Positions 21,300 through 23,657 of a DNA stretch of 50,580 nt are shown here, in pieces (position 1 is the first letter of the stretch; every line of letters begins with the position of its first letter). The stretch is from Thermodesulfobacteriota bacterium (GTDB lineage Bacteria > Desulfobacterota > Desulfobacteria > Desulfobacterales > JAUWMJ01): NCBI GenBank assembly GCA_034189135.1, contig JAXHVO010000068.1:1-50580 (forward strand). Reading direction: 5' to 3'. The position numbers and the translations under genes were made by a program. The notes beneath the pieces are model-generated. The model worked only from the letters and a program-made list of their open reading frames with translations, had not been told where the DNA came from and did not search any database.

Positions 21300-21875
21300 A
21301 TGAAAACAAAACAACTGTTTGTACTTTTTATTACTTTGTCAATGGGAATTCTGCTGATCGCTGGCTGTACATCAACTCCTCAACCCAGTGCCGACACCGC
21401 TTCACAGGGACCTGCCTGGGTGATGAAGGGAAGCGGTGCCTTTGATGTGGCCAAAGGAAAAGTTTTTTATGGGGTTGGTGCAGCCTCCGGCATCAGAAAC
21501 AAAGCTCTTTTACGGCAAACCTCAGATAACAGAGCCCGTGCTGAAATCGCCAAGACCATGGAAACTTACGTGGCAACCCTGGCAAAAGACTATATGGCCT
21601 CCACAACTGCCGGTGATATGTCTAAATCTTCGGAAGAACAGCATGTGGAAACCGCTTTGAAGACATTTTCCAAAACCACCCTTCATGGTGCAACCATCGT
21701 CGACCGATGGATGGATGCTTCGGACGGAACCATGTACTCGCTTTGCGAGCTTGATCTTTTTTCTTTCAAAGACGCCTTGGAAAAAAGCAAGGAGCTCGAC
21801 AAACAGGTTCAAGACTATGTAAGGGATAATGCTGAAAAATTGCACGGCGAGATGGAAGAGTTAGAAAATAAATAA
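21300..21875 (+). CDS. LPP20-like lipoprotein, last gene of the envelope operon
   Basis: 191 aa lipoprotein with lipobox LIAGCTS. The mature part opens with GPAWVMKGSGAFDVAKGKVF and YGVGAASGIRNKALLRQTSD, the LPP20-like pattern (PxWV... YGVGxA ... helix with RARAEIAKTM). A C-terminal helix is rich in Glu/Lys (ELDKQVQDYVRDNAEKLHGE). Start 21300 behind AAGGAGGTAACC, 10 bases after the protease gene. It resembles the middle part of the 18899 protein, so the operon carries two related modules. Confidence 0.8.
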   Translation: MKTKQLFVLFITLSMGILLIAGCTSTPQPSADTASQGPAWVMKGSGAFDVAKGKVFYGVGAASGIRNKALLRQTSDNRARAEIAKTMETYVATLAKDYMASTTAGDMSKSSEEQHVETALKTFSKTTLHGATIVDRWMDASDGTMYSLCELDLFSFKDALEKSKELDKQVQDYVRDNAEKLHGEMEELENK

Positions 21876-21885
21876 ACATTTGACT

Positions 21886-21924
21886 CCAGGCCACCCATCG
21901 TGTTGCTGCGATCCGGTGGCCTGG
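21886..21924 (+). terminator. strong hairpin after the envelope operon
   Basis: CCAGGCCACC pairs with GGTGGCCTGG, and inside it ATCG pairs with CGAT, leaving a small loop. It begins 10 bases after the stop codon of the last lipoprotein gene. There is no T run after the stem, so it may stabilise the 3' end of the mRNA rather than terminate alone. Confidence 0.55.
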
Positions 21925-21977
21925 AAACATGAACAGGTGCTCGCCTCATTTCTTACCTGAAACAATCCAAAAATATA

Positions 21978-22327
21978 TTATAACTCAAGTTTCGCACCCC
22001 GGTTTGGCGGAAAGTAATGCCCTGACGGCAGGTAACATATAAAATCAGATGTGAATCGAAACGGTTATATTTTTTTCTGTAAGGGGATATGTGGGTCATC
22101 TATTACCCCTTTTCGCAGTGTCCGGATAGTTGGGATAGACCGTCCCTTTTTTATTGTTTAGCAACGGATAGACTGTATCCCAACTATCCGGACACGCTGC
22201 AACTGATTCAATTCATATCCCCTGGAAGAAAATAATATAACTGTCTCGATTCACACCCTTAACACCAATGGGCGCTTTAACAATTCCGGCTCCACCGTTG
22301 ATAAGGAGTACGAAACTTGAGTTATAA
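21978..22327. repeat. 350-bp nested palindrome
   Basis: Ends: 21978-21997 is the reverse complement of 22308-22327 with one mismatch (TTATAACTCAAGTTTCG outermost). Middle: 22051-22091 pairs with 22214-22254 at about 85 percent. Core: TGTCCGGATAGTTGGGATA (22119-22137) pairs with its complement at 22176-22194, around a loop of about 38 bases holding a T run and TTTAGCAACGG. The whole element could fold into one long hairpin with internal bulges. No coding region lies within it. It differs from the other palindromes in the window. Confidence 0.8.
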
Positions 22328-22410
22328 ATTAAGGTTCTTCTTCAATTACAAAATTTTTCACTGCAAAAATGATACTTAAAAGGGGTCGGTAAGTTTTTCG
22401 CACTCTGCTC

Positions 22411-22655
22411 AGTTCGTCCGGAGAAGTGCCCATTTGCCCGTATCGGCCTTAACAAATAAGTCCAGCACTCTGTACACGCCCCCTATCTTCTCAGTTAAAT
22501 CCATACAGGCAGAGACGATCAACGCTGCCATGGAGTTCTGTCCCTTGGGGCTGGATCAAATCGAATCTCAGTCCGCCTCAGGCGGACCGTACGCCAGTTT
22601 CTCGAAATGATTGTTAAGGCCGATACGGGCAAATGGGCACTTCTCGGGACGAACC
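22411..22655. repeat. 245-bp element with 45-bp inverted arms, copy 2
   Basis: 22411-22455 is the reverse complement of 22611-22655 at 43 of 45 positions. The interior 22474-22560 is about 90 percent identical, without gaps, to 9455-9541 in copy 1. This copy additionally contains a small perfect hairpin, GTCCGCC-TCA-GGCGGAC (22571-22587). Read on the minus strand the core and left arm form an open frame of about 45 codons (including MAALIVSACMDLTEKIGG) that is broken in copy 1, so a decayed coding origin is possible. Confidence 0.85.
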
Positions 22656-22802
22656 ACTAACAATCATTAAAACTCAATCGGCTTACAAAAAAAGCCATCG
22701 CTAAGAAACTCCCCGGCTCCTCACTTAAATCACTTTACTTAACCGTTTTTTCCTGCTATTTTTGTCACACTATCAACCAATGTACTGGAGTTATCTTTTA
22801 TT

Positions 22803-23657
22803 TTGCGCAAAATCGGAATCGTAGTAAAAGCAGATAGAAAAGCCGGGAAAAAAGCCGACGAGCTGGAAAAATGGCTGCGTGCCAAAGGAGTTGAAGTTAT
22901 AAGGCAGGAAAGTCTGCCGCCCGGCCGTCAGCATTTCGCCAAACCAGCATCTTTTGCCCCTGTTGATTTGTTTTGTATTTTTGTTCTTGGCGGAGACGGA
23001 ACATTTTTAAGCGCCGTTCGATGGATTGGGGACCAGGATATTCCCATTCTGGGGGTTAAATTTGGCGAGGTCGGTTTTTTGGCAGAAACAGTGGAAGAAA
23101 GTCTTTTTCACGTCGCCCAATCGATTTTAAATAATGATTTTACCACCAACCCCAGAATGCGGCTTTTGGTGAGTGTGATCCGGGCGGAACAGAAAATTGC
23201 CGAAGAAACCGTGCTTAACGATGTGGTGGTAAACAAAGGAACCCTGGCCAGGCTGGCACACATAAAAACCTATATTGACGATCACTATCTGACGACTTAT
23301 CGGGCGGACGGACTGATTGTATCAACGCCCACCGGCTCAACCGCGTATTCGCTGGCTGCCGGCGGCCCTGTGATTCATCCTTTGGTCCCCGGAATCGTCA
23401 TGACACCGATTTGTCCCTTTACCCTGACCAACCGCCCTTTGATCATTCCCGACTCAGCAACAATCACCATCAGGCTGGAAAAAAAATCTTCGGATATTAT
23501 GCTGACGTTTGACGGCCAGGAAGGTATCAGAATCACTGAGCAAGATACGGTTATCATCCAAAAAAGCCTGCGACCCATCCGCATGATCACCATACCGGAT
23601 CAGCATTATTTTGATGTGTTAAAAGAAAAGTTGCGCTGGAGCGGAGGGCGGGTTTAA
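22803..23657 (+). CDS. nadK: NAD kinase
   Basis: Cytoplasmic ATP-NAD kinase that makes NADP, 284 aa, the normal size. It has [13 protein letters not shown] (GGDGT, about residue 62) and LNDVVVNKG (NAD-binding Asn-Asp/Glu motif, about 138). [20 protein letters not shown] with AAGGP follows at about 167-190. The start is a TTG at 22803 with GGAG about 14 bases upstream; no ATG or GTG gives the conserved N-terminus RKIGIVVK. lsrF follows after 31 bases. Confidence 0.93.

Follow-up and report, generated by a model that had tools for sequence, protein, structure and literature searches.

What occupies the long palindrome between the gene for an LPP20-like lipoprotein, which ends at 21875, and the NAD kinase open reading frame (ORF), which starts at 22803, in the window, that is, the whole 50,580-nucleotide stretch of Desulfobacterales DNA analyzed here? 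An earlier note, made from the letters alone, had described positions 21978-22327 as a nested palindrome, and the window letters bear this out. The palindrome does comprise three nested pairs of arms: an outer one (21978-22000/22305-22327, 91% pairing identity), a middle one (22050-22091/22214-22255, 86%), and an inner one (22118-22137/22176-22195, 100%, with 38 nt between the arms). The outer arms do pair, but the outermost six bases on each side (TTATAA, 21978..21983 and 22322..22327, no strand) are a target-site duplication (TSD) outside the element, and they were taken into the stem because TTATAA is itself palindromic. What they enclose is a 338-bp sequence on the + strand (21984..22321), hereafter element A, with terminal inverted repeats at 21984..22000 (CTCAAGTTTCGCACCCC, +) and 22305..22321 (ending in CGAAACTTGAG, +). 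Its + strand folds at -134.8 kcal/mol (z -10.3; dinucleotide shuffles give -82.2 ± 5.1). Owing to the near-symmetry of the element, its - strand folds as well (-150.7 kcal/mol, z -12.3). Beside it, just 3' of the lipoprotein gene (21884-21925), lies a perfect short hairpin, CCAGGCCACC..GGTGGCCTGG, without a T-run.

The palindrome is a small transposon without an enzyme of its own (MITE), with ends CTCAAGTTTCGCAC. Element A is short, it has terminal inverted repeats, a flanking duplication, and multiple dispersed copies, and it contains no transposase ORF; the window ORF check found no ORF of at least 80 aa inside it or anywhere between 21876 and 22802. A decayed head-to-head gene duplication was rejected on the absence of ORFs and the many dispersed copies. 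Besides fragments, about 22 good copies (85-97% identity) were counted in the genome that the window comes from (G000; 4.63 Mb in 140 contigs, 95.5% complete); G002, of the same genus, has copies at about 77%, 12 of which were located. Barring a few point changes, intact copies all begin with CTCAAGTTTCGCACC and finish with its complement. Exact direct repeats flank 18 of 27 copies (6 bp in 12 and 7 bp in 6), whereas shuffling left and right flanks among copies yields means of 2.9 and 0.3, respectively. The repeated, foldable element that the earlier note had implied is therefore real, with copies elsewhere, target-site duplications, and arms that still pair in other copies and genera. An empty site in G001 or G002, sought via the downstream gene, gave no ortholog match. 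Three copies (L095:2852-3107, the end of L379, and the start of L380) are interrupted at the same TATAA site, at element position ~259, by elements with CCCyAAwTGAGCG ends, marking a hot spot within the core stem.

The same note had taken this palindrome together with a neighboring palindromic element as one almost wholly self-complementary stretch (21886-22655), but the two do not form a single structure. The neighbor, element B (22380..22722, +), represents a different family of MITEs, which has its own ends (AAGGGGTCGG/CCGGCTCCTC), about 18 copies in the genome, an internal 44-bp inverted repeat, and its own TSD, ACTTAA, at 22374-22379 and 22723-22728. In one B copy (L096:2213-2388, contig C128 of G000) we observed a truncated element A, and so A moved after B.

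A mobile element lacking a transposase requires one supplied in trans. The 16-mer end of element A is present in 69 of 389 genomes of the order, while its reversed pattern has no match in the genomes listed. These ends are shared with autonomous IS4-family elements of other genera of the order (L132, L133, and L135); in G341, G307, and G237, two such ends face each other in inverted orientation at a distance of about 1.6 kb, and between them lies a transposase that matches NCBIfam NF049925 ("IS4 family transposase") at 323-328 bits (cut-off 250), the only family to score above its cut-off. The autonomous element measures 1596 bp, the L132 transposase gene has its stop codon within the right end, and the YREK motif reads YIKRWPIEVCFKECK (spacing Y-2-R-3-E-6-K). 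In the ISPepr1 subgroup of the IS4 family, elements are 1500-1600 bp long, end in the consensus YT-AA-YTT---A, and use AT-rich targets with 7-8 bp direct repeats (PMC2266710). The end CTCAAGTTTCGCA matches this consensus exactly, and the length of the relatives' autonomous element, its YREK motif, and its AT-rich targets agree with ISPepr1, although the duplications here are 6-7 bp instead of 7-8, and the window element has no transposase and an interior unrelated to the insertion sequence (PMC2266710). These features fit an ISPepr1-like member of the IS4 family as the putative helper, which would recognize the CTCAAGTTTCGCAC ends in trans and duplicate 6-7 bp of AT-rich target. Neither a terminal-repeat search nor an NF049925 profile search found an autonomous copy in G000; since this assembly is in 140 contigs, a collapsed insertion sequence could be missing from it. 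A solo end in contig C51 (L084:3023) was rejected as an autonomous copy, the adjoining GGDEF gene being a diguanylate cyclase.

Within element A, the inner hairpin forms a module conserved in its own right, which, like the TTATAA duplication, the earlier note had not foreseen. This core (22051..22257, +; ~207 nt; models R1 and R2) folds with a z of -12.0 against dinucleotide shuffles. It consists of a lower helix, a 3x3 internal loop, a helix AGGcGATAT/ATATcGCCT, a large asymmetric loop, an apical helix (GTGrCCyGATATTTrkGAT), and a variable loop of ~45 nt. In the window copy, the lower helices, internal loop included, take up 22051..22091 (5' arm, +) and 22214..22255 (3' arm, +), and the apical helix takes up 22118..22137 (GTGTCCGGATAGTTGGGATA, +) and 22176..22195 (+). 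Its internal loop reads GTA, where most relatives have GGA, opposite GGA, and one apical pair has changed on both sides, from U-A to G-C, relative to most other copies (alignment columns 148/217). Helix 3 and the apical helix contain blocks of conserved sequence. Our first idea of a universal GGA/GGA loop was rejected, as some lineages pair this loop fully. In the A lineage, TATAAA lies immediately upstream of the core (22038-22043).

It is the core, and not the whole of element A, that diverged relatives in further families match. Of the 389 genomes surveyed in the order, mostly metagenome assemblies, where repeats break contigs, the core model matches 39, from 22 genera; among 297 genomes drawn from the whole phylum, it matches one further genome only. 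When 84,980 genomes were scanned for a pattern, confirmed matches came only from records labeled Desulfobacterales, Desulfobacteraceae, or Deltaproteobacteria and from one Proteobacteria-labeled MAG, and matches outside Desulfobacterota (Bacteroidota, Photobacterium, Psychromonas, and Wolfebacteria) were unconfirmed by the core model. Plasmids and phages gave no match. No Rfam family matched at the gathering threshold, and a permissive search returned weak matches at chance level only.

Base-pair covariation of the core exceeds its controls. In alignment A1 (27 copies from G000 and G002), nine pairs show two-sided changes; in alignment A2 (20 cores, MAFFT), 96.6% of cells are paired and 21 of 41 pairs show two-sided changes, counts that the relatedness of the copies inflates and that do not represent independent events. 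The A2 covariation score is 0.303, compared with 0.115 for shuffled and 0.04-0.08 for slid partners, and 0 of 500 shuffles reach the score of the core. Alignment A3 (32 cores) scores 0.363 versus 0.121 when shuffled, although it comprises mostly further copies aligned to the model and is thus biased toward it.

The core resides in MITEs of at least three unrelated end types: CTCAAG (TSD of 6-7 bp), CAGGGTAAACGC (TSD of 9 bp), and AACTTCTCAATAAGTT (TSD of 8 bp). Core elements with CTCAAGTTTCGCAC ends and 6-7 bp duplications occur in G000, G002, G009, G103, and others (L264 has 7 bp). The second type has CAGGGTAAACGCATTTGGAAA ends forming a perfect 21-bp inverted repeat and the 9-bp duplication TGATTATAT (L247 of G001; also L331 of G002), and the third has GTAACTTCTCAATAAGTT ends and an 8-bp duplication (L246 of G301; also G283 and G055). 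Possibly, AGTTATACGA ends with a 5-bp duplication in G171 constitute a further type. Two core-bearing end types coexist in single genomes, CTCAAG with CAGGG in G001 and G002 and CTCAAG with AACTTC in G283, and elements with the same ends but different, coreless interiors exist as well. In a tree built from 47 cores, whose deep branches are weak and in which "end not identified" was counted as its own group, end type changes 10 times (minimum, 4); well-supported branches give at least two origins each for CTCAAG and CAGGG. On contig C130 of G002, a CTCAAG element is nested within a CAGGG element. Such nested insertion is a plausible route for core exchange between transposon ends and offers a concrete way for cargo to switch transposon family. 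For the CAGGG and AACTTC ends, a search for helpers met only ordinary genes among the neighboring ORFs and turned up no full-length element with paired ends. In G000, CAGGGTAACCGCATTTGGTTTTTTAAGGAT ends lie about 120 bases from the ends of contigs C105, C132, and C134 (L333, L334, and L335) and, judged by position, similarly near the ends of several other contigs; they probably belong to a collapsed multicopy insertion sequence, a helper candidate for the CAGGG MITEs.

Stems are also kept where copies stay in place. Within G000, distinct changes per site number 0.35 in core stems and 0.77 at unpaired core positions. Among same-site copies in G029, G088, and G124 (family f28, with ends not settled), 4-6% of stem positions differ, compared with 20-30% of unpaired positions. 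For one genome pair at that site, 3 of 82 stem and 34 of 115 loop positions have changed (p 2e-6); at a second orthologous site, the counts are 1 of 82 and 15 of 119 (p 0.003). As these orthologous fixed copies show, the stems stay constrained even after the element has ceased to move. In G088 (contig C43, L236:544-963), two tandem cores stand in the same orientation, 11 bases apart.

Which molecule would be active? Across distinct cases, with pairs found from either strand, G-U outnumbers A-C by 13:3 in G000, 12:8 in G002, 7:4 in A2, and 18:7 in A3, an asymmetry that is modest, depends partly on how the alignments were made, and cannot separate RNA from single-stranded DNA. The excess modestly favors one folded strand, probably RNA. 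The orientation of 34 copies to neighboring genes looks random, with no bias in transcript direction, so the copies cannot generally depend on read-through from one side. No promoter-like site was recognized in the window copy. On balance, we rate RNA as a likelier candidate than DNA. The pattern suggests that the core is a putative functional RNA or DNA hairpin not described before.

Overall, we consider it very probable that element A is a MITE mobilized by an ISPepr1-type transposase acting in trans and that its hairpin is a selected module taken over by several end types. The ~207-nt core would be kept by selection on its fold and would have been acquired by unrelated transposon ends at least partly via nested insertion; its active form would be a folded single strand, most likely transcribed RNA, that may benefit the element or the host. 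More tentatively, and at somewhat less than even chances, the core may represent a new structured noncoding RNA class (or single-stranded DNA hairpin) of Desulfobacterales that travels in MITEs belonging to several unrelated transposase families and is also retained at fixed places in the chromosome, so that cargo and vehicle would be independent of each other. A hairpin acting at the DNA level seems rather unlikely: extruded or lagging-strand single-stranded DNA, or paired protein-binding sites, might be recognized by a host or mobile protein and aid transposition or the replication-linked spread of any carrier. Random orientation, the folding of both strands, the presence of the core in MITEs of several transposon types, and the conserved blocks in helix 3 and the apical helix would all suit this explanation, and G-T pairs are better tolerated than A-C in DNA too. 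However, a cruciform predicts equal G-U and A-C, contrary to the asymmetry seen, and a pure mobility aid would not need the constraint found in fixed orthologous copies.

Foldbacks near insertion sequence ends are known to block read-through, and other MITEs with the same ends are strongly foldable too; the core might then do no more than insulate, as any long foldback could, by stopping transcription or translation from reading into or out of the element. We find this improbable, because a generic foldback does not need helix sequences, an internal loop, and an apical architecture conserved across 22 genera. We give similarly little credence to a functionless core, an old MITE interior that would owe its lasting symmetry to a mechanical process and its spread among end types to chance nesting. 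Nested insertion is indeed seen directly, the copies are multicopy and related, so that covariation events are not independent, and template-switching repair of quasi-palindromes could keep the arms complementary. Such repair should nevertheless erase conserved internal-loop mismatches, whereas the noncomplementary 3x3 loop persists across many lineages; moreover, slid controls drop to background and the stems of fixed copies change far less than their loops.

The inside of a MITE is usually viewed as decayed filler. In the present case, one such interior keeps its structure across 22 or more genera even as the flanking transposon ends vary, and its stems persist in copies that have ceased to move. 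Should the core prove to be a functional hairpin of RNA or DNA, MITEs would serve as its vehicles, and the order would have a structured element family present in no RNA database. Bacterial MITEs with structured transcripts, some of them transcribed and processed, include NEMIS/Correia, ERIC/RU-1, and CIR (PMC2229807). Element A is likewise small, intergenic, and foldable, with terminal repeats and duplications; in contrast to these families, each described with a single end type, its core spans several end types and shows deep covariation (PMC2229807). Hairpins of Borrelia plasmid repeats also keep their pairing through compensatory changes, but they lack bounding transposon ends, are much shorter, and belong to another lineage (PMC2674063). 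The size and covariation of the core resemble those of structured noncoding RNAs in Rfam, without a match at the gathering threshold. A limited search of the open-access literature, which is weak evidence, found no report of one structured interior common to MITEs with different ends. MITEs are known, but as far as we found, a structure-selected core passing between transposon families has not been described. A second, coreless MITE interior of ~294 bp, with CTCAAG ends and strongly foldable, occurs in G000 (L082:1565-1858, L085:1594-1888, and L087:5330-5624) and also in G214 (L148 and L149), which belongs to a distant family of the order.
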